From Candidatus Hydrogenedentota bacterium (lineage in GTDB: Bacteria > UBA8481 > J006): DNA of 14,064 nt. Positions 839 through 13,339 of this stretch are shown here, piece by piece. The position numbers were made by a program, and so were the translations under genes. The DNA is taken from NCBI GenBank assembly GCA_003697085.1, contig RFFU01000131.1, positions 1 through 14,064 of the forward strand, written 5' to 3'. The notes below the pieces were generated by a model. The model saw only the letters and a list, made by a program, of their open reading frames with translations. It ran no database searches and was not told the origin of the DNA. Position 1 is the stretch's first letter. Each line of letters begins with the position of its first letter.

Positions 839-2032
839 TTACTCGCCCAGAACAAGCCTCCTCTGGAACGCCTCCAACGCCTCGGGATACTCCTCGGGGA
901 ATCGTACCGCGTTCCTCCCCCACTCACGGCAGAGGGAACAGCGGAAACATTTTTCCGGCAGGCATCCCCCTTTTCGAAAGACCGCTTCGAGGTAGCCGTC
1001 GAGTGCGCGGTTTTCGATCCAAAGATCCTTCTCTATCCGATCGGCGGTTCGCGACGCCTGACGAAGCAATCGAAGGTGCCGCAGTCCTGAGAGAAAGAAG
1101 GTACTGAATGCGGTACGCGGGTCGAGGTGAACGTTACCTCTCGCCAGGAGGTCGAGCAGATTACCGTCAAAGCGCCGCGAAGAGTACGCCTGCACACGTT
1201 GAACGAGCCGTTCCGTGGAACAACCGCGGCCGGCAATCTTGAACCGTCTGTACCCCAGTTCCTCATAAAGGTGTAAATCTTCCGGACGGATCCAGTCCTG
1301 CATCATCAAACGCGCAGGATCCCTCGCGAATTCGGCTTGGCACTGGAAATAACAAGCATCCGGACGCGGAATAAGATTTCGGGAAGCCTCCCCGATATCC
1401 TTGGCGTGACACGGGGCCCAGGCACATCCGAGTTCACAGCGATTGTTCACGAAGATTTCCAAGGTATTCGAGTCGAATTTTTTCGCCAAACGGGCCAGCC
1501 GTTTCGGATCCCGATTCACCAACATCGAATCGAGAACAACGATCGAGGCTCCGAGATCCAGCCATGACGCGACCTTTCTCTCGTCATCCGCTCGAGCGAA
1601 GACACTCACACGAACCTTCAGGGGAGTATGTTCTTTGACGACGCGAAGAAGAAACGGCGAGACGACGGTGACGGATTCCACGCCGATCTCAACAAGCCAG
1701 GACAGAAACCTCCGGAGCCGGCGAAAGCCGGAGGGGGTTACGGCGTCACCGGTTCCTCCATCCGCGGCATTGAGAAGATAGTTAAAGCCGATTCCTTTTT
1801 CGCGGGCGTCCGCGACGTGCCTTTCCAGGCGCCGGCGACCGATCTTCGGAACGAGGAAGCGGTGTCTTCCCCCACCGTAGCCGTCGTCTTCCATTCTCCC
1901 GTAAATCTCAATGACACCCTTTCCCTCGATGCGATCGAGAAACTCCTTCTCGAAACTCGTAGCCACCGAGAAACCGGTTCCGCCCTTCTTCGCGATATTT
2001 TCCCCGTATTTCCTTGTCTCCGCGTTCCGCAT
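839..2032 (-). CDS. U32 peptidase-family protein (UbiU/UbiV/YhbU-like), probable Fe-S protein
   Basis: This 397-residue protein looks like a member of the peptidase U32 superfamily. That superfamily includes proven non-proteases such as the O2-independent ubiquinone hydroxylases UbiU/UbiV and RNA hydroxylation factors. Visible features are a barrel-like N-terminal half (GIGFNYLLNA 81-90, VTVVSPFLLR 121-130) and a cysteine cluster C199-x3-C203-x4-C208 followed by C227-x3-C231. Next come the typical DLHLYEELGYRRFKIAGRG stretch (252-270) and a second cluster near the C-terminus, C357-x4-C362-x2-C365-x2-C368. The clusters suggest one or two iron-sulfur clusters. The start (ATG 2032) lies 6 bases after the PKS stop, with AGGAAGGA a little far upstream, so translation is probably coupled. 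I infer a redox or hydroxylation step on the PKS product. Family assignment is fairly sure; substrate is unknown. Confidence 0.75.
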   Translation of the reverse strand: MRNAETRKYGENIAKKGGTGFSVATSFEKEFLDRIEGKGVIEIYGRMEDDGYGGGRHRFLVPKIGRRRLERHVADAREKGIGFNYLLNAADGGTGDAVTPSGFRRLRRFLSWLVEIGVESVTVVSPFLLRVVKEHTPLKVRVSVFARADDERKVASWLDLGASIVVLDSMLVNRDPKRLARLAKKFDSNTLEIFVNNRCELGCAWAPCHAKDIGEASRNLIPRPDACYFQCQAEFARDPARLMMQDWIRPEDLHLYEELGYRRFKIAGRGCSTERLVQRVQAYSSRRFDGNLLDLLARGNVHLDPRTAFSTFFLSGLRHLRLLRQASRTADRIEKDLWIENRALDGYLEAVFRKGGCLPEKCFRCSLCREWGRNAVRFPEEYPEALEAFQRRLVLGE

Positions 2033-2038
2033 CCTTCG

Positions 2039-3112
2039 TCAATCCTTCCTCAAGACGGCCATATCCGCCTGAAATCCCGGGCCGACCGCAATAATCCCGT
2101 GGAACCTCCCATCCTGTTCTGCTTTCAGGAAACGTTCGAGGATGAAGAAGATTGTAGCGGAGGACATATTGCCGAAATCCCTGAGCACGCCTCGGCTGAG
2201 AGAAAGATCTTCCGGAGACAAACCGAGCGATTCCTCGATCGCCTCCAAAATCTTCGGCCCCCCGGGGTGCACGAGCCAGGAGCGAACCGGTTCGGGAAGT
2301 TGAAAGCCATCGAGTATTTCGCGGACGGCGGGAATCAGGTCGGTTCGAATGAAGCGTGGGATTCGAGGCGAAAGAAAGATGTGAAATCCTGTTTCCTCGA
2401 GATCGAATCCCATAAAAGATTCCGTACCGTCGAAAAAGCGTGTCCCCACCTCCTCGAGAGCAAAGCCGCCTTCTCCGCGGCAACCGAGCACCAGCGCGGC
2501 GGCCCCGTCGCCGAAGATGGCACACGAGACCAGATGATCACCGGTTCCGTCCGTCGGCTGAAAATTCATCGTCGGCGTTTCGGCTGCGACGATGAGAACG
2601 GTGCTGGTCGGATTTCCCCGCAAATAATCACGCGCGATGCGTAATGCGGCGACCCCCGCCGCACAGCCCAATTCCGTGACCGGAAGACGCCCCACATCCC
2701 GCCGAAACGGATATTCGGCAAGAAGAAAGGCATCCAACGAAGGAATCATAAAGCCCGTGCATGACGTCGTGATGATGAGATCGATCTCTTCAAAGGAACA
2801 CCCTGCGTTTTCCATCGCCCTTTTCACCACCTCGGAGCCGAGCCGTCGACAGGCGTCGATGTAGAGGCGGTTCTTCTTCCCCAACGGCCTCGGGTTCAAG
2901 AGATCTCTGACGGGAAGCACGCTGTAGCGACGACCGACCCCCGCGTTCCGGAAAACCCGCTCACATCGTTCGAGAGAAAGATCGAAATTCTCTTCTCCCA
3001 CGCGAGAATACCATTCCCGCAAGGCTTCGATGGCTTCTTCCTGAGAAAAAGATTTTTCTGGATTGGCGGTCGCCAATCCCAGGATGCGGATCGGGTCCGC
3101 GCCTCGAGTCAC
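2039..3112 (-). CDS. type III polyketide synthase (chalcone synthase-like)
   Basis: This 357-residue protein has the usual length of a bacterial type III polyketide synthase, a homodimeric ketosynthase that extends an acyl-CoA starter with malonyl-CoA. The catalytic triad is visible: Cys150 in ELGCAAGVAAL, His282 in WLVHPGGPKIL, and Asn315 in DFGNMSSATI. The thiolase-fold motif TTSCTGFMIPSLDA (115-128) and the C-terminal GPGFQAD loop (344-350) are also intact. It overlaps the yceI-like stop by 4 bases (ATGA) and is followed after 6 bases by the U32 gene, so the three are one translationally coupled operon. The GCAAG-type active site fits the bacterial PKS18/alkylresorcinol/RppA-like group rather than a FabH or HMG-CoA synthase. 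Starter, number of extensions and product cannot be read from sequence. Confidence 0.93.
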   Translation of the reverse strand: MTRGADPIRILGLATANPEKSFSQEEAIEALREWYSRVGEENFDLSLERCERVFRNAGVGRRYSVLPVRDLLNPRPLGKKNRLYIDACRRLGSEVVKRAMENAGCSFEEIDLIITTSCTGFMIPSLDAFLLAEYPFRRDVGRLPVTELGCAAGVAALRIARDYLRGNPTSTVLIVAAETPTMNFQPTDGTGDHLVSCAIFGDGAAALVLGCRGEGGFALEEVGTRFFDGTESFMGFDLEETGFHIFLSPRIPRFIRTDLIPAVREILDGFQLPEPVRSWLVHPGGPKILEAIEESLGLSPEDLSLSRGVLRDFGNMSSATIFFILERFLKAEQDGRFHGIIAVGPGFQADMAVLRKD

Positions 3113-3717
3113 GAGGCCGTGGACTCTCGAGTCAATCTCCCCTGCGCGTGAAATTTAACCTCGACGTTGTCTCCCACCCTCAAAAAAAGGAAGCCGGGAC
3201 GTTCCATTCCGAAATCGGTGATCCGCAAATCGGCACGCCCGTCCACAACGGCATAATCGTCCGTCAAACCCGCGCGAATCCTCAACCCCGTCTTTCGAAC
3301 GACCCCGTGAATGGTCAGCGTCCCAACCGCTAAAGCGGTGAACGTATCGGCCGTCTCCCATTTGACGTCTCTGAGTTCCTCAAGATGAAAGCGGATATTC
3401 GGATACTTCCTGGCTTCAAATGTCTTGTACATATTCTTGTCGCGAGCGGAGATTCCCGTCTTGAGTGACTTGACGGGAATAATGACGTCCGCGTACGCGG
3501 TTTCCGTCAGTTTCTCCTTGTCCGCCCCGAATTTTCCCAGCACGGTGCTCGTTCTTCCCTCGAAATTGTGAGCGGTCGAATGGCCGAAAAAGACGATTTC
3601 ATTTCTCCCTGAATCGCGGGTCGTATAGTCCAGGATCCCGGCGGAAGTGGCGGCGATAAAGACCGCCATCCCAACCGCGATCACGAAACCACGCCTGACG
3701 AAAGACTGCACCGGCAT
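3109..3717 (-). CDS. YceI-family exported lipocalin-like protein
   Basis: A 202-residue exported protein of the YceI family. Members form an extended beta-barrel that holds polyisoprenoid or similar amphiphilic molecules in the periplasm. Residues 1-26 form a signal peptide: positively charged VRR, a hydrophobic stretch 10-23, and ATSA before the likely cleavage site. The mature part has the family motifs: FFGHSTAHNFEG (43-54), the ARDKNMYKTFEARKYPNI block (91-108), LTIHGVVRKT (134-143) and the closing VGDNVEVKF strand (181-189). ATG 3717 has an excellent AAGGAGG (3725-3731) 7 bases upstream. The stop overlaps the type III PKS start by 4 bases. Close coupling to a lipid-like polyketide synthase suggests it may bind or carry the product or a quinone precursor; this is inference. 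Confidence 0.92.
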   Translation of the reverse strand: MPVQSFVRRGFVIAVGMAVFIAATSAGILDYTTRDSGRNEIVFFGHSTAHNFEGRTSTVLGKFGADKEKLTETAYADVIIPVKSLKTGISARDKNMYKTFEARKYPNIRFHLEELRDVKWETADTFTALAVGTLTIHGVVRKTGLRIRAGLTDDYAVVDGRADLRITDFGMERPGFLFLRVGDNVEVKFHAQGRLTRESTAS

Positions 3718-3729
3718 TTCCTCTCCTCC

Positions 3730-3912
3730 TTACTTTTCTTTCTTCTCGATCAGCACCAAATCATACCATCCCGTCCGATAGATCCGAGTTTCTTCCTTCT
3801 CGATTGTCACCGAATTCCCGAATTTCGAGCAATGGGAAACCGCCACCTGAATGGAGGCAGCAAGAAATGTGCCACTCTGCTTACTTTCACGCCACTTCTT
3901 CCGCTTCTCCAT
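3730..3912 (-). CDS. small unrecognised ORF, possibly the 3' remnant of a longer gene
   Basis: A 60-codon frame ends 12 bases before the YceI start. Its TAA overlaps the YceI Shine-Dalgarno, as in a coupled operon. The C-terminal part, including VTIEKEETRIYRTGWYDLVL, looks like real protein. The same frame stays plausible upstream of the ATG, through IFEIIQPP, to about 3950, where it runs into the promoter and start region of the oppositely oriented dehydrogenase gene. A GGAGG lies near 3950 but with no standard start codon at proper spacing. It could be a genuine small protein or the tail of a truncated gene, perhaps an enzyme of the same pathway. I do not recognise the family. Confidence 0.35.
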   Translation of the reverse strand: MEKRKKWRESKQSGTFLAASIQVAVSHCSKFGNSVTIEKEETRIYRTGWYDLVLIEKKEK

Positions 3913-4002
3913 CGGCGGCTGGATGATTTCAAAAATCGAAATTCCTCCTTGCTCTTGCTCATTCCGTTTGCAGAAGACGCCAAAGAAGGAAAGAATGTTC
4001 CC

Positions 4003-5035
4003 ATGAAAGCCGTCTCACTCGAAAAACAGTCTCCCATTGAGGAACTCCCGTTGAATCTCTCTGAATTCCCCGTCCCCGAACCGAAGGCGGAAGAGGTCCT
4101 CGTGAAGGTGGAGGCCTGCGGTGTCTGCCGTACCGATCTCCATATCGTCGAAGGAGACCTTCCTCTCAGGGCCTCACCAACCATTCCAGGGCATCAGATT
4201 GTCGGCACCGTCGCGGAAGCCGGAGCCGGAGTGACACGCTTCACGGTTGGCGAGCGGGTCGGTATCGCCTGGTTGCATCATACTTGTTCGGAGTGTTTCC
4301 ATTGCCGGCGCGGGGAAGAAAACCTCTGCTCAGAAGCCCGGTTCACAGGGTGGGACGTGCCGGGAGGATTTGCGGAGTTCACGACCGTTCCCGAAACATT
4401 TGCCTACGCTCTTCCCTCTACAATTCCGGCTCCGACCGCGGCTCCTCTGCTTTGCGCCGGGATCATCGGATACCGCACACTCCGCCGCGCGGGGGTCGAA
4501 CCGGGGCGGCCGGCGGCCATTTGGGGGTACGGGGCGGCCGGACACATTGCTCTTCAATTACTGAAATATTGGGAATGCCCGACCCTTGTCTTCACGAGAA
4601 CACGGCGGCATCAGGAAGAAGCCAAGGCTCTCGGAGCGGAATGGGTCGGCACGGCCGATCAGATACCTCCCTTTCTCCCGCATTCCGCGGCGGCTTTCTT
4701 TCCCAACGGCTCCCTCGTTCCCCGCGCTTTGGAACTTCTGGAACCCGGTGGGATCCTGGCCCTGGGCGGCATCCACCTTTCGGAGATCCCTTCTCTGAAC
4801 TACGACAAACATCTTTACCGCGAACGAACTCTGACAAGTGTCACCAACGCCACACGACGGGACGGGGAGGACTTTTTGTTGTTGGGCCCAGGAGATCCCG
4901 ATTCGAACCCGGGTTAAGATTTTTCCCCTCGAGAAGGCCGCCGAAGCCTTGCAGGCGCTCAAGGAGAGTCGCCTCGCCGGAGCCGCGGTTTTGGTTATGA
5001 ATTCCAAAGATCCCTCCGGAGAAACTTCCCTTTGA
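4003..5035 (+). pseudogene. zinc-dependent alcohol dehydrogenase (MDR family), frameshifted near the C-terminus
   Basis: A medium-chain, zinc-dependent NAD(P)-linked alcohol dehydrogenase. Visible features are catalytic-zinc ligands Cys42 (ACGVCRTDLH) and His64 (PGHQIVG), with Cys151 in LLCAGIIGYRTL. Structural-zinc cysteines are 95, 98, 101 and 109, and the Rossmann motif is GYGAAG (175-180). The frame opened at ATG 4003 runs to a premature TAA at 4915-4917, leaving a non-family tail after LLL (residue 294). From 4886 the +1 frame supplies exactly the missing C-terminus (AQEIPIRTRVKIFPLEKA... to the TGA at 5033-5035). One extra G in GGG 4884-4886 explains the break, and the repaired length is about 343, normal for the family. 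ATG 4003 fits the family N-terminus MKAV; AAGGAAAG (3986-3993) lies upstream. It may be a true mutation or a sequencing error. Confidence 0.88.
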
Positions 5036-7987: not shown

Positions 7988-9121
7988 TTATGAGGGGCCT
8001 GGCAACGAGGGAGACGACGACTTTTCTTGGAGAATATGCTCCAAAAGTGATGCGTAATTCTGAGCCAATTTTTTGATCCCGGATTTCGAATAATGAACGT
8101 TATCCACGAAATATGAGGGATTTCCATCGAAAATCTTATCGTTATCAACGAAAAAAGACCCCGTCGATTTCGCTACTTTTTCGATGATTCGGTTATAAAT
8201 TTTATGGTGAGCAACATATTCGTGAAACATTGGATAGACTACGACGTTATTATAGGGACGTTGGGAGGTTTTCAAGAAAACTTCTTCGTTGGGAAAAATC
8301 GGTTGAGACCCGAAGACGACGGTGATGTGGTTGGCTGCAGCCAGGGTTTGGAAAGAACGCAAATTTCGTTCAAAAACGGCGGCAGCCAATTTTGGAACGG
8401 AATCGCCATAAGATCGTTGGCGAAGTTGATACCGGGCTGTCGAGAATTTCTTTTGATTCAACCAGTCTTTCAGGAACCAGTAGAATTCAAAATGCTGGAA
8501 GAGAAGATTCGTGGTTGTGAAACGCGATTGATAATTGGGGAATTGGTAGAAAGGGTGGGAGTATTTGTTCGAATAGTCAAAGCGGAAATTCGGCCAATAT
8601 ATCACGGACCGATCGTTGATATTATGGCTTATGATAACTAGATCAGGATGCCAGGATAAAACATCCAGTTCGAATAAAATCAGAGAATGAGGCGTCGCGT
8701 AGGCGGAATAACCGGCGTTGATGACCTCAAATCTATAATTCTTGAACCGCCGCCTCAATAACTTTTGTAATTCGAGGGGATAATGTGTTCCGGTATGGCC
8801 GGCTCGATTTTCGGTCGTTGAACCTCCCATACAAACGATTCGAAAGGTGTGCGGGGCTTTGTTGAGAGGATAGGTCTCGCCGCGGCTCGAGACGATAAAG
8901 ACTTTCTCATCGTGTACTTCATAGAAATCCGGTCCGAATGTTCGGAATGGAACAAGAGGTTTCAAGGGGCGGTTCAATTTGTTTCTGACATCGGTGAAAA
9001 AACTTTTTCCGGAAAAAACGTTTTCGAGACGAAGGACCACTTCGCAGAACATTAAGCTCAAGAAAAGCCCCCCCAGCATAACCAACAGCCGAGATTTCCA
9101 TCTTTTTGATCTTCGCGTCAT
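7988..9121 (-). CDS. membrane-anchored SGNH/GDSL-family hydrolase
   Basis: A 377-residue protein with a basic N-terminus and one membrane or uncleaved signal segment (RLLVMLGGLFLSLMFCEVVL, 11-30), then an SGNH hydrolase domain facing the periplasm. Conserved blocks are MGGSTTEN (98-105, nucleophile Ser101), NAGYSAYA (135-142, Gly137), HNIND (166-170) and FVDNVHYS (338-345) with Asp340 and His343 completing the triad. Relatives are carbohydrate or lipid esterases and acyl-modifying enzymes of envelope polymers; the substrate here is unknown. ATG 9121 is preceded by no clear Shine-Dalgarno, so initiation may be weak. Base composition is AT-richer than the flanks (24 G+C in the 60 bases from 8521, against 41 in the 60 from 4501), which suggests acquisition by transfer. 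Confidence 0.88.
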   Translation of the reverse strand: MTRRSKRWKSRLLVMLGGLFLSLMFCEVVLRLENVFSGKSFFTDVRNKLNRPLKPLVPFRTFGPDFYEVHDEKVFIVSSRGETYPLNKAPHTFRIVCMGGSTTENRAGHTGTHYPLELQKLLRRRFKNYRFEVINAGYSAYATPHSLILFELDVLSWHPDLVIISHNINDRSVIYWPNFRFDYSNKYSHPFYQFPNYQSRFTTTNLLFQHFEFYWFLKDWLNQKKFSTARYQLRQRSYGDSVPKLAAAVFERNLRSFQTLAAANHITVVFGSQPIFPNEEVFLKTSQRPYNNVVVYPMFHEYVAHHKIYNRIIEKVAKSTGSFFVDNDKIFDGNPSYFVDNVHYSKSGIKKLAQNYASLLEHILQEKSSSPSLPGPS

Positions 9122-9471
9122 TGAACCGATTTTAGTCGTAGCCGGAAGAGAAAAAAGGACAAATGGATGGACAGGAAGGGGAGAAGATCGAGACGTTCGC
9201 CGGTGAACTCGGGGAATTCCTCCTCGTCGCCGCTTTGCGTTTCATCACTCAACAAAAAACTCGGGACGGCCAGACGGCTGCTCCTCAGCCGGCCCAACGC
9301 CGCTGCAGGACATGGAGTAGGACTTGAACCCCGCTCGGCAAACGACCTATTGGCCACAAAGTGCCAATCCTGTGACGTACGCTTTTAGAGCCTGAAAACT
9401 CGTAAACCGTAGTTGCGGAACACGCTACACCGGCCAGAAGACGATAGAAAAAAACGTTGGCGCTGACACTC

Positions 9472-9494
9472 GGCGTTCCGCCGGGGAAAACGCC
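9472..9494. promoter_or_regulatory. GGCGTT/AACGCC inverted repeat, possible operator
   Basis: GGCGTT (9472-9477) and AACGCC (9489-9494) are inverse copies 11 bases apart, about 60 bases upstream of the predicted -35 box of the small Cys/His-rich gene. The same half-site recurs as a tighter palindrome before the receptor gene (10024-10038). A shared regulator is inferred only. Confidence 0.3.
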
Positions 9495-9550
9495 CCACGT
9501 GAGGAGAAAAGAAGAAGAAAGAAAGTGCCACCGACTCATTGGAAAACACC

Positions 9551-9579
9551 TTGCATGTTTCTGGGCCGCCTTCTAACAT
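9551..9579 (+). promoter_or_regulatory. candidate promoter of the metal-uptake module
   Basis: TTGCAT (9551-9556), a 17-base spacer and TAACAT (9574-9579) resemble a sigma-70 promoter of moderate quality. The expected start of transcription, about 9586-9587, coincides with the ATG at 9587. That would make a leaderless message and fits the absence of a Shine-Dalgarno there. Confidence 0.3.
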
Positions 9580-9586
9580 TCGCCTT

Positions 9587-9994
9587 ATGGTGCCTGTTTC
9601 ATCAAGAAGATGGTTTTATCGAAAAAACCTCCCCTTTTTCTTGGTGACGCTTTTGTTTCTTCTTCCCTCTGCGGAACTTGCCTCCACATCTACACTGTTA
9701 TCCGAAACGAAGTGTACCTGCCATCATTCGATGTGCCAAATGGGGAAGCACGGCGCACATGCTTGTTGTTGTAGAAAAATCTTAAAGAACGGCAGGGCGG
9801 CGATGAGGCCGTTTTGCAACACCCGAACGGTTTCTCTGTTGTCAAGCCGAACAGACGGGGCAAAAGAAGCCTGCAAAATTACGACATACAATGAAATGAT
9901 TTCGCTCGGGGGACTACCCCGTGAAGGCGATATTCCCCTTCCAGAGTTCAACTCTACTCCAGAACCGCCACCGCCGCGTACGACTCCTTTCTGA
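9587..9994 (+). CDS. small exported Cys/His-rich, probable metal-binding protein
   Basis: Taken from ATG 9587 this is 135 residues: a basic N-terminus, a signal-peptide core (LPFFLVTLLFLLPSAELA, 15-32), then a metal-ligand cluster CTCHHSMCQMGKHGAHACCC. In it Cys43, 45, 50, 60, 61 and 62, His46, 47, 55 and 58, and Met49 and 52 are packed. Further Cys are at 77 and 96, and the C-terminus is proline-rich (PEPPPPR). The Cys/His/Met mix suits copper. It stands directly upstream of a copper-type TonB receptor, so a periplasmic copper-binding or delivery role is inferred. The frame extends up to a TTG at 9539; I prefer 9587 because it begins a normal signal peptide. Neither start has a good Shine-Dalgarno. 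No characterised homologue is recognised. Confidence 0.7.
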   Translation: MVPVSSRRWFYRKNLPFFLVTLLFLLPSAELASTSTLLSETKCTCHHSMCQMGKHGAHACCCRKILKNGRAAMRPFCNTRTVSLLSSRTDGAKEACKITTYNEMISLGGLPREGDIPLPEFNSTPEPPPPRTTPF

Positions 9995-10023
9995 ATACTG
10001 TTCCATAGAGAGACCGCCAGAGG

Positions 10024-10038
10024 GAACGCCGGGCGTTC
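10024..10038. promoter_or_regulatory. 15-bp perfect palindrome before the receptor gene
   Basis: GAACGCC (10024-10030), one G, then GGCGTTC (10032-10038). It lies 30 bases after the small exported protein's stop and 193 bases before the receptor start. No T-run follows, so an operator is more likely than a terminator. It shares the GGCGTT half-site with 9472-9494. Confidence 0.35.
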
Positions 10039-10214
10039 GAGTGTAGGGCCTTCGCGCCTTGTTCGGTCTTAAAATCCACCACTCTATGAACGCATTTTGC
10101 CGTTTGTACCAGTAGTCGGAGATCCTTTCTTCTCAGCAGAATGCTCATCACTCCGAACGTCTTTTCCCTTCTTTTTGAAAATGGTCTCTCCAATTTCAAA
10201 CATCTGAAGTGTGA

Positions 10215-10220
10215 AAGGAG
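10215..10220 (+). promoter_or_regulatory. ribosome binding site deciding the receptor start
   Basis: AAGGAG lies 10 bases upstream of ATG 10231. The earlier in-frame ATG at 10141 has no such site and would place 30 non-signal residues before the signal peptide. Confidence 0.55.
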
Positions 10221-10230
10221 AAGTGCCTCA

Positions 10231-12354
10231 ATGAGAAAACGCTCAAATGAACTGTGGTTTAGTTCGGGGGTTAGTGTGTTGATTCGGCTTATGTTTTTGA
10301 GCACTTTCGTTTTGCCTTCGACCAGAGCGAATATGTTCGCGACGGAAATAGAAAAAACGAATCTGCAGGAAATCGTTGTCGAGGAGGAAGGTGATCTTTT
10401 TCGCTTTCACTCCGGTTCACTTGAAAGAGCGGCCCTTACCACGCCAAATACGGCAGAGGTCGTAGCGACCAGCCCTGGTGCAGCGGTGATCGAGAACGGA
10501 CCTATCACCGGCGATTTTCAATATCGCGGGCTGGATTCACAACGCGTTCAGGTCCTTATCGACGGAATGGAGATCACACCGGTGGGTCCGAACAGGATGG
10601 ATGCGCCCTTTCAGATTGCACCACCGGAACTCCTCCAGCAAGTCGAGGTCACCCGGGGAATAGCCCCGCTTTCGACAGCAGGCGGAGCATTTGGCGGCTC
10701 CGCAGAAGCCCGTTTCCGAACGAGTCACTATACGGATGCCGCTTCCCTGGTATTTGATTCCGGCGGAAGTTTTTTATTCGCCGGCGTCCGAACAAATCGC
10801 GCCGCGGAACGGACCGGCTTTCTTCTTTCCTTCGGATCGCATATCACACGACTTCATTTTCGAGGAAGTTTTGAAAACGGAGAGGACCGTAAGAGCTCCA
10901 GAGGGGTTGTTCTCCCCTCCGGGTACAAGAGAAAAACTCTTGGAATCGGTTTTGCGAGAAAAAGACCGGAAGGAGAATGGGGTGCTGATTATTACATGCT
11001 CCGAACCGACGATTTCGGAAATGCGTCTCTTCCAATGGATGCTCATCTTGTCGAGAGTCACATCGGACGCCTCTTCGCCTCAGGAATCGTGGCGGGTTTT
11101 GTTGTAGATGGAAATCTCTACTTTACCGCCCAACGCCACGTGATGGACAACTTTCGTCTTCGTCCAGATCCGGGAGCGGCATCGCGTCGAAACAGTGATC
11201 ATCAGGCGCGAAATATCGGTTGGAGCATTCAAGGAACAAGATCTGCAGGAAATGGAATCCTTTCTGTTGGTGCAGATGGACACTTCTATCGTCAACTCCA
11301 GATTATCACTAATCCCTCCAACCAAGCGTTTCAGATAACGAATTTCAACCATACCGAAAATAATCGGTACGGAATGTTTATCGAATGGAGCGGTTCCGTC
11401 AAAAACGGGTTCAACCTGGGATTAGGCGCCCGCCTCCACTATGTTCAGATGAACGCTGATCCGGTTTCGCCACCGCCAACGGCAGCGGCGCGTACACTGG
11501 CTGCACGCTTCAACAGCGCCAATCGAAGGAAAGACGAAAAAACTCTTGATTTGTTTACTTCAATAAACAAGGAAATCGCGGATGGACTGGAGGGGGAAAT
11601 CCAGTGGGCAAGGAAGTCGCGTTCCCCATCGTTTTTTGAACGTTTTTCCTGGCTACCGCTCGAGGTTTCTGGTGGATTGGCAGACGGTCACAATTACATT
11701 GGCAATATTGATCTAAAACCGGAAACCATCAATGAAATTGATGTCGGTCTGGATTGGCATTCCAAGAGATTCCGATTGACCCCCCGGGCGTTCTATCGAC
11801 GAGTCAATGGCTATATCCAGGGGACACCGACAGGTGACGCCACGGTTCTTATGGTGAGCACAATGAACGGAGACGCAAACCCCTTACAGTTTAACAACAC
11901 AGGAGCCGAGTTCTACGGTGCCGATGCAGCTTGGACCCTGGGACTAGGAGACCACTGGCATGCAAAAGGAACGCTCAGTTTCGTACGCGGATTAAGAACG
12001 GATATCGCGGACAATGTGTATCGCGTGGCGCCATTTCACGGGAACACAGAACTTGCCTATGAACAAAAACAAGGTGCGTTCGCACTGGAATGGGTTTTCA
12101 GCGGAAAGCAGGATAGAGTCTCAAAAACCAACGGTGAAACTCCTACCTCCGGATGGGGCGTGATCAACCTTCGAGGAGAATATCGTCCGACCCGAAACCT
12201 CAAAATATCACTGGCGGTGAACAACGTCTTTGACCATTATTACGCCTCTCATCTCAACGGTTTCAACCGGGTCTCCTCTTCTTCCGTTCCCCCCGGAAAC
12301 CGCATCCCGGAAGATGGACGCCACATCAGCGTTACAACGCAATACCGTTTTTGA
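10231..12354 (+). CDS. TonB-dependent outer-membrane receptor, copper (OprC/NosA) type
   Basis: A 707-residue TonB-dependent transporter: signal peptide (about 1-34), a TonB-box-like EIVVE (47-51), a plug domain (about 70-170, with VQVLIDGMEI and LQQVEVTRG), and a 22-strand barrel ending in ...TTQYRF with terminal Phe, as outer-membrane barrels do. Two signatures place it in the copper-receptor family. GPNRMDAPFQIAPPE (119-133) corresponds to the family's CPNxMDPP-like plug loop, and HVMDN (303-307) holds the HxM ligand pair. OprC binds copper through CxxxM and HxM. Here Met123, His303 and Met305 are kept, but the Cys position is Gly119. It forms a unit with the small Cys/His-rich gene upstream and tonB downstream. 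Transport of copper or a related metal is inferred; the altered site leaves the exact substrate open. Confidence 0.9.
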   Translation: MRKRSNELWFSSGVSVLIRLMFLSTFVLPSTRANMFATEIEKTNLQEIVVEEEGDLFRFHSGSLERAALTTPNTAEVVATSPGAAVIENGPITGDFQYRGLDSQRVQVLIDGMEITPVGPNRMDAPFQIAPPELLQQVEVTRGIAPLSTAGGAFGGSAEARFRTSHYTDAASLVFDSGGSFLFAGVRTNRAAERTGFLLSFGSHITRLHFRGSFENGEDRKSSRGVVLPSGYKRKTLGIGFARKRPEGEWGADYYMLRTDDFGNASLPMDAHLVESHIGRLFASGIVAGFVVDGNLYFTAQRHVMDNFRLRPDPGAASRRNSDHQARNIGWSIQGTRSAGNGILSVGADGHFYRQLQIITNPSNQAFQITNFNHTENNRYGMFIEWSGSVKNGFNLGLGARLHYVQMNADPVSPPPTAAARTLAARFNSANRRKDEKTLDLFTSINKEIADGLEGEIQWARKSRSPSFFERFSWLPLEVSGGLADGHNYIGNIDLKPETINEIDVGLDWHSKRFRLTPRAFYRRVNGYIQGTPTGDATVLMVSTMNGDANPLQFNNTGAEFYGADAAWTLGLGDHWHAKGTLSFVRGLRTDIADNVYRVAPFHGNTELAYEQKQGAFALEWVFSGKQDRVSKTNGETPTSGWGVINLRGEYRPTRNLKISLAVNNVFDHYYASHLNGFNRVSSSSVPPGNRIPEDGRHISVTTQYRF

Positions 12355-12388
12355 GCGCAAAAGAACATTGAATTTTTTTAGGAAAGCA

Positions 12389-13339
12389 ATGCACGGATTT
12401 CCGTCGTCCAAAACAAAGGCTGCGGAAGACAAGCATGTCTTCCGCACCGCACTGATTCTTTCGACCGTTATTCACCTCGCCTCCTTTCCATTTTGGCCGC
12501 ATCTTTCCGCCCCACACCTTCAGAATAAAATGAAACGAAACACCATATCCTACCTCTCTTCAGAAAGACCCGTGCCTCAACCGAAAACTTCAGGCCATCC
12601 GATTATGCGCGTGAAGCCGATCGAAACACACCCGGCCCAAAAATCACTAAAAAAGCGTGTATGGAAAAATCTGTCTCCCCCAAGATCCCACCCCTCATTT
12701 CAAAAAAGGACGCCACCGTTAAATACGATGTTGAACGAACGAAAGAAGCCTGCAGTCCAGCGAGAAGGCCAGTGCCCCCGAACCATACCCAAACACCAAC
12801 TCCACCCGGCCGTTTCTCAAAAACGTAAATCGGATTTTTTCATCAGCAAAACCGAAACGAAAAATAGATCGAATTCTGATAAAGTCCCGCCCCATTCAAA
12901 AAGGGCCAGAAGATTCGATGCCTCTTTCGAGGGAATACCTCCGCCGCCGATCACATCGAGTTTATCCATCACCTCAACACCGGGAAATCCGGGTTCGAAC
13001 AAAGAAAGAAGCCTTTTAAATCAAACAACACGTGATATTCGAAACGACAGTGGTATGAACGACTATTGGAAACTGGTGCGTAAAAAAATTGAAGACAAAA
13101 AATATTATCCTGAAATCTTGAAGCGAAAACACCTCGCGGGAACTGTTTTGGTACGCTTCAAAATTTTTTCGAACGGCACTGTCGAGAAGATACGGACGGT
13201 GGCAAAAGACCGAAACATCCTTTTCGCATCGGCGGCCCGTAATACCGTCCTCCGCGCCGCACCCTTTCCTCCACCGCCGGACGGGACATCTCATCTCGTC
13301 GAAATCCAAATTCGTTATAATCTGCGAGACAAAAGATAA
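12389..13339 (+). CDS. tonB: TonB-family energy transducer
   Basis: A 316-residue TonB protein, which couples ExbB/ExbD proton-motive energy to outer-membrane receptors. The N-terminal membrane segment (about 18-37) carries the SxxxH signature, Ser25 and His29 in LSTVIHL. The periplasmic linker (about 40-220) is long and unusually basic, rich in Lys, Arg, His and Pro, instead of the classic Glu-Pro/Lys-Pro repeats. The C-terminal domain (223-313) has YWKLVRKKIEDKKYYP, GTVLVRFKIFSNGTV and the APFPPPP end motif. ATG 12389 is chosen because AGGA lies 5-6 bases upstream and the gene then begins 34 bases after the receptor stop; an in-frame ATG at 12314 would overlap the receptor. It is probably dedicated to the adjacent receptor. 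No exbB or exbD is in the window. Confidence 0.9.
   Translation: MHGFPSSKTKAAEDKHVFRTALILSTVIHLASFPFWPHLSAPHLQNKMKRNTISYLSSERPVPQPKTSGHPIMRVKPIETHPAQKSLKKRVWKNLSPPRSHPSFQKRTPPLNTMLNERKKPAVQREGQCPRTIPKHQLHPAVSQKRKSDFFISKTETKNRSNSDKVPPHSKRARRFDASFEGIPPPPITSSLSITSTPGNPGSNKERSLLNQTTRDIRNDSGMNDYWKLVRKKIEDKKYYPEILKRKHLAGTVLVRFKIFSNGTVEKIRTVAKDRNILFASAARNTVLRAAPFPPPPDGTSHLVEIQIRYNLRDKR

Follow-up and report, generated by a model that had tools for sequence, protein, structure and literature searches.

A type III polyketide synthase operon with a U32-family protein in the place of the flavin enzyme, and its candidate role in O2-independent phenolic-lipid synthesis

A type III polyketide synthase (PKS) gene of Candidatus Hydrogenedentota is encoded in one operon with a YceI-family lipocalin and a U32-family protein, and comparison with other genomes reveals that the U32 protein takes the place of the usual O2-using flavin enzyme beside related PKSs; the two never occur together. 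Pathways to phenolic lipids and quinones normally depend on O2 for hydroxylation of the ring. The best explanation of the operon, and one that we hold to be reasonably probable, is a phenolic-lipid pathway of the alkylresorcinol-to-alkylquinone type, in which the U32 protein would hydroxylate the ring without O2 via an Fe-S cluster and the YceI protein would serve as carrier. This explanation is built on the order and integrity of the genes, their recurrence across phyla, the mutual exclusion of U32 and FAD enzymes, and conserved cysteines, together with a predicted fold of the U32 protein. The original prediction of such a pathway is partly supported. Hereafter, the window denotes the whole 14,064-nucleotide stretch of DNA that was analysed (contig RFFU01000131.1).

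The Operon and Its Known Counterparts

All three open reading frames (ORFs) are on the minus strand, in the order YceI, type III PKS and U32. The features are as follows:

3718..4002, no strand: divergent intergenic region between the operon and a plus-strand alcohol dehydrogenase gene (assigned by position only)
3109..3717, minus strand: YceI-family lipocalin, 202 aa, with an AGGAGG-like ribosome site upstream (Pfam PF04264, 7.5e-20)
2039..3112, minus strand: type III polyketide synthase, 357 aa, GTG start (Pfam PF00195 and PF02797; 1u0m and Pks11; triad motifs)
839..2032, minus strand: U32-family protein, 397 aa, predicted Fe-S hydroxylase (Pfam PF01136; AlphaFold2 model; cysteine conservation)

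The original prediction described three coupled and intact genes, and this is borne out by the 4-base overlap (the four bases GTGA are common to the YceI stop and the PKS start), the 6 bases between the PKS stop and the U32 ATG, the Pfam families, the triad motifs and eight cysteines of the U32 protein. The feature had been drawn to position 3912; as read from the ORF coordinates, the operon boundary is at 3717, and 3718–3912 is upstream region. The operon promoter is likely to be located in 3718..4002, judging from position. The genome assembly (3.2 Mb in 145 contigs, 94.6% complete) encodes a heme-copper oxidase (COX1), and strict anaerobiosis is therefore not to be assumed. An Rfam scan of the window gave no match, and neither the PKS nor the U32 gene is present in the one other genome of the phylum that was examined.

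The PKS has both domains typical of type III enzymes (Chal_sti_synt_N, PF00195, 1.2e-23; Chal_sti_synt_C, PF02797, 3e-20) and a Cys-His-Asn triad in which all catalytic residues are intact, within the motifs GCAAG (about residues 147–153), VHPGGPK (about residues 281–287) and FGNMSS (about residues 313–318). Its best PDB sequence matches are 1u0m and Pks11. By analogy with the activity of the family, its product would be an alkylresorcinol-type ring.

The YceI protein combines the PF04264 domain with a signal-peptide-like stretch at the N-terminus (read by eye), and is likely, by analogy, to be a periplasmic carrier of lipids or quinones. Ligands of YceI proteins include ubiquinone-8 or octaprenylphenol, which are bound by BcnA and by GNA1030 of N. 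meningitidis, secreted or periplasmic members of the same family (PMC9113575). Whereas lipocalins of the BcnA/GNA1030 type are encoded with cytochrome b561, the YceI gene of the window is encoded with a PKS.

In srsABC of Streptomyces griseus, hidABC of cyanobacteria and the planctomycete methyltransferase–FAD–PKS alkylresorcinol operons, a PKS, a methyltransferase and a ring-oxidizing enzyme are encoded in one operon (PMC10896814; PMC8086630). PKSs of one tree clade occur both in operons of this type and in those with U32, and the flavoprotein slot is occupied by a U32 Fe-S-type protein in the window and in 27 other loci. The window operon further differs in that YceI is added and the methyltransferase is absent; a Pfam search of its three genes detected neither of the two usual PKS partners, methyltransferase or flavin oxidoreductase. 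The minus-strand frame at the window edge, downstream of U32, is what we take, by eye, to be the start of hemB, and hence no methyltransferase gene follows U32. In the genome as a whole, the best methyltransferase match is 33% identical, and no close ortholog that would point to relocation of the methyltransferase gene to another site was found (assembly 94.6% complete); a genome-wide flavoprotein search returned FAD_binding_3 matches of a generic kind only.

A five-gene operon of Saltatorellus ferox is similar to that of the window in encoding a type III PKS with a lipid/isoprenoid-binding (YceI-like) protein, but it contains two methyltransferase genes and no reported U32, whereas the window has U32 and no methyltransferase (PMC10896814). 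In the searchable, open-access part of the literature, no description of the U32–PKS link was found, nor any paper that treats a type III PKS together with YceI, or peptidase U32 together with polyketides; three papers mention both a type III PKS and U32, incidentally as far as their titles suggest. Of the pathway that had been called unreported, only the U32 part appears to be new, as one case of a YceI-like gene next to a type III PKS was already known, in S. ferox.

Pairing of U32 with PKS, and Exchange with the Flavin Enzyme

With the window U32 as the sole query (E 1e-8 or better), an untargeted scan matched 23 of 386 genomes, and U32 adjoins a type III PKS at four loci besides the window (L067, L071, L072 and L081). 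When the same 386 genomes were scanned with the window PKS (E 1e-20 or better), 35 genomes were matched; six genomes are in both lists, and the two genes are adjacent in three of the six, against a chance expectation of about 0.3% of pairs. Because neighbouring PKS genes turned up again in other families in the untargeted U32 scan, the U32–PKS linkage is more than local chance. A targeted scan, in which an alignment of PKS-linked U32s was compared with named bacterial and archaeal genomes, returned 199 relatives, from which 80 loci were kept. A PKS is present within about 6 kb at 23 of these 80 loci (about 0.3% expected per pair), a fraction that is biased upward by the PKS-linked seeds and is no estimate of frequency.

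The total thus comes to about 28 U32–PKS loci (the window, the four loci of the untargeted scan and 23 named loci), and the search for this gene order in other genomes that was proposed with the original prediction has found an association conserved across phyla. According to record titles and tree labels, the 23 named loci are distributed over eight phyla (Planctomycetota, Myxococcota, Bdellovibrionota, Thermodesulfobacteriota, Lentisphaerota, Verrucomicrobiota, Fibrobacterota and Pseudomonadota), to which the poorly sampled phylum of the window is an addition. The Thermodesulfobacteriota loci are those of six Geomonas species, which are cultured and have the order methyltransferase-U32-PKS, and of Desulfobacteraceae and Desulfohalobiaceae. 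Gene orders include the following:

L067: U32-YceI-PKS-methyltransferase
L072: U32-methyltransferase-PKS
L071: U32-methyltransferase-PKS, with the PKS truncated where the contig stops
L081: PKS-U32, at a contig end
L090 and L095: YceI-PKS-U32-methyltransferase, the order of the window with one gene added
L091 and L092: U32-PKS-methyltransferase-YceI-MMPL protein
L133: MMPL-YceI divergent from U32, with methyltransferase-PKS opposite
L102: PKS-MMPL-U32-methyltransferase
L124: YceI, methyltransferase, PKS and U32 together

To count partner genes, every ORF up to 6 kb from each of 60 PKS genes (27 U32–PKS loci and 33 others) was searched with profiles. An FAD oxidoreductase gene is found at 0 of the 27 U32 loci and at 14 of the 33 others (Fisher 9e-5, a significance that is overstated as the loci are not independent). 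A methyltransferase (SAM) gene is present at 22/27 U32 loci and 11/14 FAD loci; the absence of a methyltransferase and an FAD hydroxylase noted in the original prediction holds for the window operon, but a methyltransferase is the rule in its relatives. Loci with either hydroxylase candidate have a methyltransferase gene in 33 of 41 cases and loci with neither in 1 of 19 (Fisher 3e-8, a guide only, given the non-independence of loci). YceI is enriched at U32–PKS loci (9/27, compared with 2/33 elsewhere), in support of the original prediction.

In the tree of the 60 PKSs, U32 and FAD labels interleave with at least five switches among the labelled rows, and the tree comparison originally suggested therefore reveals repeated exchange of the two enzymes beside related PKSs. 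Within the planctomycete-type clade, U32 is present at L088 and L089 and FAD at L177, L182, L185 and L188; the order in L182 and L185, methyltransferase-FAD-PKS, is that of the planctomycete alkylresorcinol operons (PMC10896814). In a well-supported clade, U32 accompanies the PKS in L067 and in four Myxococcota loci, while L191 has a flavoprotein. In addition, FAD-YceI-PKS-methyltransferase in L036 corresponds to the order in L067 with U32 in the FAD position and the rest of the order kept. The L191 flavoprotein scores as an aromatic-ring/ubiquinone-type monooxygenase. However, of the three flavoproteins that were scored, two have their best match among geranylgeranyl-reductase-like proteins and are not clearly monooxygenases, which counts against the best explanation. 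The window PKS is a long branch whose nearest relative, L167, has no adjoining U32, and the window U32 is likewise a long branch in the U32 tree; these features and the missing methyltransferase ortholog count against the best explanation.

A heme-copper oxidase is encoded in 22 of 28 U32–PKS genomes and in 14 of 14 FAD–PKS genomes (p 0.08, not significant). Obligate anaerobiosis as a simple rule is rejected on these 22 genomes and the COX1 of the window's genome, and it is not evident why an O2-free route would be needed, which counts against the best explanation.

Family, Fold and Cysteines of the U32 Protein

The U32 protein (Pfam Peptidase_U32, PF01136, 2.8e-8, above the gathering score) consists of a TIM-barrel domain (about residues 16–290) and a C-terminal Cys domain. 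The best PDB fold for its AlphaFold2 model (pLDDT 85.5, pTM 0.88) is that of the U32 protein Mk0906 (5d88; Z 19.8, rmsd 3.1, 230 aligned residues), and both the Pfam domain and the predicted fold place it in the U32 superfamily. Among the PDB matches, 5d88 is the sole one from the U32 family; UbiU/UbiV structures are not among them, which is not proof of their absence. C199, C203, C231, C357, C362, C365 and C368 are invariant in 44 relatives, C227 is conserved in >90%, and all eight are intact in the window U32. One set of four (C199, C203, C227 and C231) is in the U32 domain, as in Fe-S U32 hydroxylases, and the pattern as a whole points to a single chain with two four-Cys sites, in which an Fe-S cluster would probably be bound.

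UbiU and UbiV, O2-independent Fe-S hydroxylases of the ubiquinone ring, have one 4Fe-4S cluster apiece (PMC6747719; PMC10470549). They share with the window U32 the family, a conserved Cys set and the context of a phenolic-lipid ring pathway, but the window U32 is of another subfamily, is a single gene rather than a UbiU–UbiV pair, has an extra C-terminal CX4CX2CX2C set and is associated with a PKS-derived ring instead of 4-hydroxybenzoate. It matches no NCBIfam model, including those for UbiU, UbiV and TrhP; as controls, E. coli UbiU (560 bits), UbiV (363 bits) and TrhP match their own models. The TrhP model gives 23.8 bits with one U32 relative (cut-off 534). Judged by these profiles, the window U32 is neither UbiU nor UbiV and does not belong with TrhP/RlhA. 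The parallel originally drawn with UbiU/UbiV survives insofar as other U32 proteins are O2-independent hydroxylases (PMC6747719; PMC10470549; PMC6599085), but not as a family assignment.

TrhP and RlhA hydroxylate RNA and require prephenate, and TrhP needs Glu E162 (PMC6599085). This residue aligns with E192 of the window U32, but Gln or a hydrophobic residue is at this position in most relatives; the two Cys of the TrhP/RlhA motif are conserved among relatives and the Glu is not, which counts against the best explanation. Hydroxylation is a candidate role for the subfamily, proposed by analogy, and co-location with a PKS does not show chemistry.

The Proposed Pathway and Its Alternatives

In the proposed pathway, the type III PKS would form an alkylresorcinol-type ring from a fatty acyl starter and malonyl units, and the U32 protein, as an Fe-S TIM-barrel enzyme, would hydroxylate this ring without O2, doing the job of the flavin oxidoreductase/monooxygenase of srsABC- and hidABC-like clusters. 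By analogy with TrhP and RlhA, prephenate would probably donate the oxygen; this fits the presence of a chorismate mutase–DAHP synthase gene, a prephenate source, directly upstream of U32 in about 25 loci of a sister U32 clade. The hydroxylated ring could then oxidize to an alkylquinone, and YceI, exported to the periplasm, would bind the lipid and shuttle it between the membranes. As cited in PMC10896814, Streptomyces griseus and Myxococcus xanthus oxidize alkylresorcinols further, to alkylquinones, and mycobacteria short of oxygen use polyketide quinones to carry electrons (Anand et al., 2015). A more general proposal, made here tentatively, is that a widespread O2-independent polyketide quinone route joins a type III PKS ring, a single-chain, two-cluster U32 and YceI-carried non-isoprenoid redox lipids. 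If the pathway is as proposed, the UbiU/UbiV principle would extend beyond ubiquinone, and many uncultured phyla would be predicted to have phenolic lipids or quinones whose synthesis can proceed without oxygen. The poorly known U32 subfamily would gain a specific, testable substrate, and the presence of the genes in cultured Geomonas species opens the question to direct test.

The product may instead be a phenolic lipid of the envelope (an alkylresorcinol or alkylpyrone, not a quinone), which YceI and MMPL proteins would deliver to the outer membrane, where its role would be structural or protective. MMPL/RND-like and YceI genes occur among L091, L092, L102 and L133, and phenolic lipids affect beta-lactam sensitivity in S. 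griseus (PMC10896814); on its own, however, an envelope use leaves the methyltransferase and the hydroxylase candidate beside the PKS unexplained, and we regard it as possible but somewhat doubtful. The enzymes of this reading are compatible with those of the best explanation, from which it differs in end use alone.

The U32 protein could also act in the same pathway at a different step, an Fe-S redox or lyase reaction of the polyketide such as reduction, decarboxylation or deoxygenation, which is unlikely. Such a step would suit a subfamily that is outside the UbiU, UbiV and TrhP models and has a second conserved 4-Cys set, as well as the resemblance of some replaced flavoproteins to reductases and the other neighbours of the subfamily, namely terpenoid genes (squalene-hopene cyclase, polyprenyl synthase) and UbiD/UbiA-like genes. 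However, the U32 members of known activity in the cited papers are hydroxylation proteins, and at least one swapped flavoprotein, that of L191, scores as an aromatic hydroxylase.

Finally, it is highly improbable that the U32 protein is a housekeeping, TrhP/RlhA-like RNA hydroxylase placed downstream of the PKS by accident: some U32 family members modify tRNA and rRNA (PMC6599085) and this U32 is the only one found in the window's genome, but the protein matches no TrhP, UbiU or UbiV model, U32 and FAD enzymes are mutually exclusive, and chance placement is rejected on the recurrence of the PKS linkage in at least eight phyla.

A U32 clade beside chorismate mutase/DAHP synthase and terpenoid genes

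Within the subfamily of the window's Peptidase_U32-family protein (U32), a separate clade of 32 rows (including L099, L104, L107, L109, L112, L114-L116, L119, L123, L126, L134, L138, L145, L146 and other loci), hosted for the most part by Myxococcota and Spirochaetota, has a chorismate mutase/DAHP synthase gene nearby, which often immediately precedes U32. Further neighbors are a polyprenyl synthase, a squalene-hopene cyclase, an amine-oxidase-type flavoprotein (presumably HpnE-like) and another FAD oxidoreductase. This clade may hydroxylate a terpenoid O2-independently with locally supplied prephenate.

Other neighborhoods of U32 relatives

A B12-binding radical SAM gene adjoins the pair of U32 and type III polyketide synthase (PKS) genes in six Geomonas species and one Oligoflexia genome (L101, L106, L111, L113, L137, L139, L133). 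In the Nitrospirota loci L142 and L144 (about 9000-13000), the genes after U32 encode a polyketide cyclase/SRPBCC protein and a FabF-type ketosynthase; this may be a further pathway to an aromatic polyketide that includes a U32. UbiD- and UbiA-like genes (menaquinone-type) adjoin U32 relatives in L073, L074 and L075. L079, L080 and L085 share a conserved cluster that contains no PKS, in which U32 and a fatty-acyl-reductase/SCP2 protein are followed by an unknown protein of 362 aa and then by YceI, a hydrolase and an ABC transporter.

Other genes in the window

10141-13339, plus strand, TonB-dependent receptor overlapping a TonB-like gene
4003-4990, plus strand, zinc alcohol dehydrogenase (TIGR02822)

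The copper-receptor model gave the top NCBIfam score for the receptor, below its cut-off. The dehydrogenase has a frameshift near 4880, beyond which its C-terminal end runs on in another frame, reflecting either an assembly error or a pseudogene.
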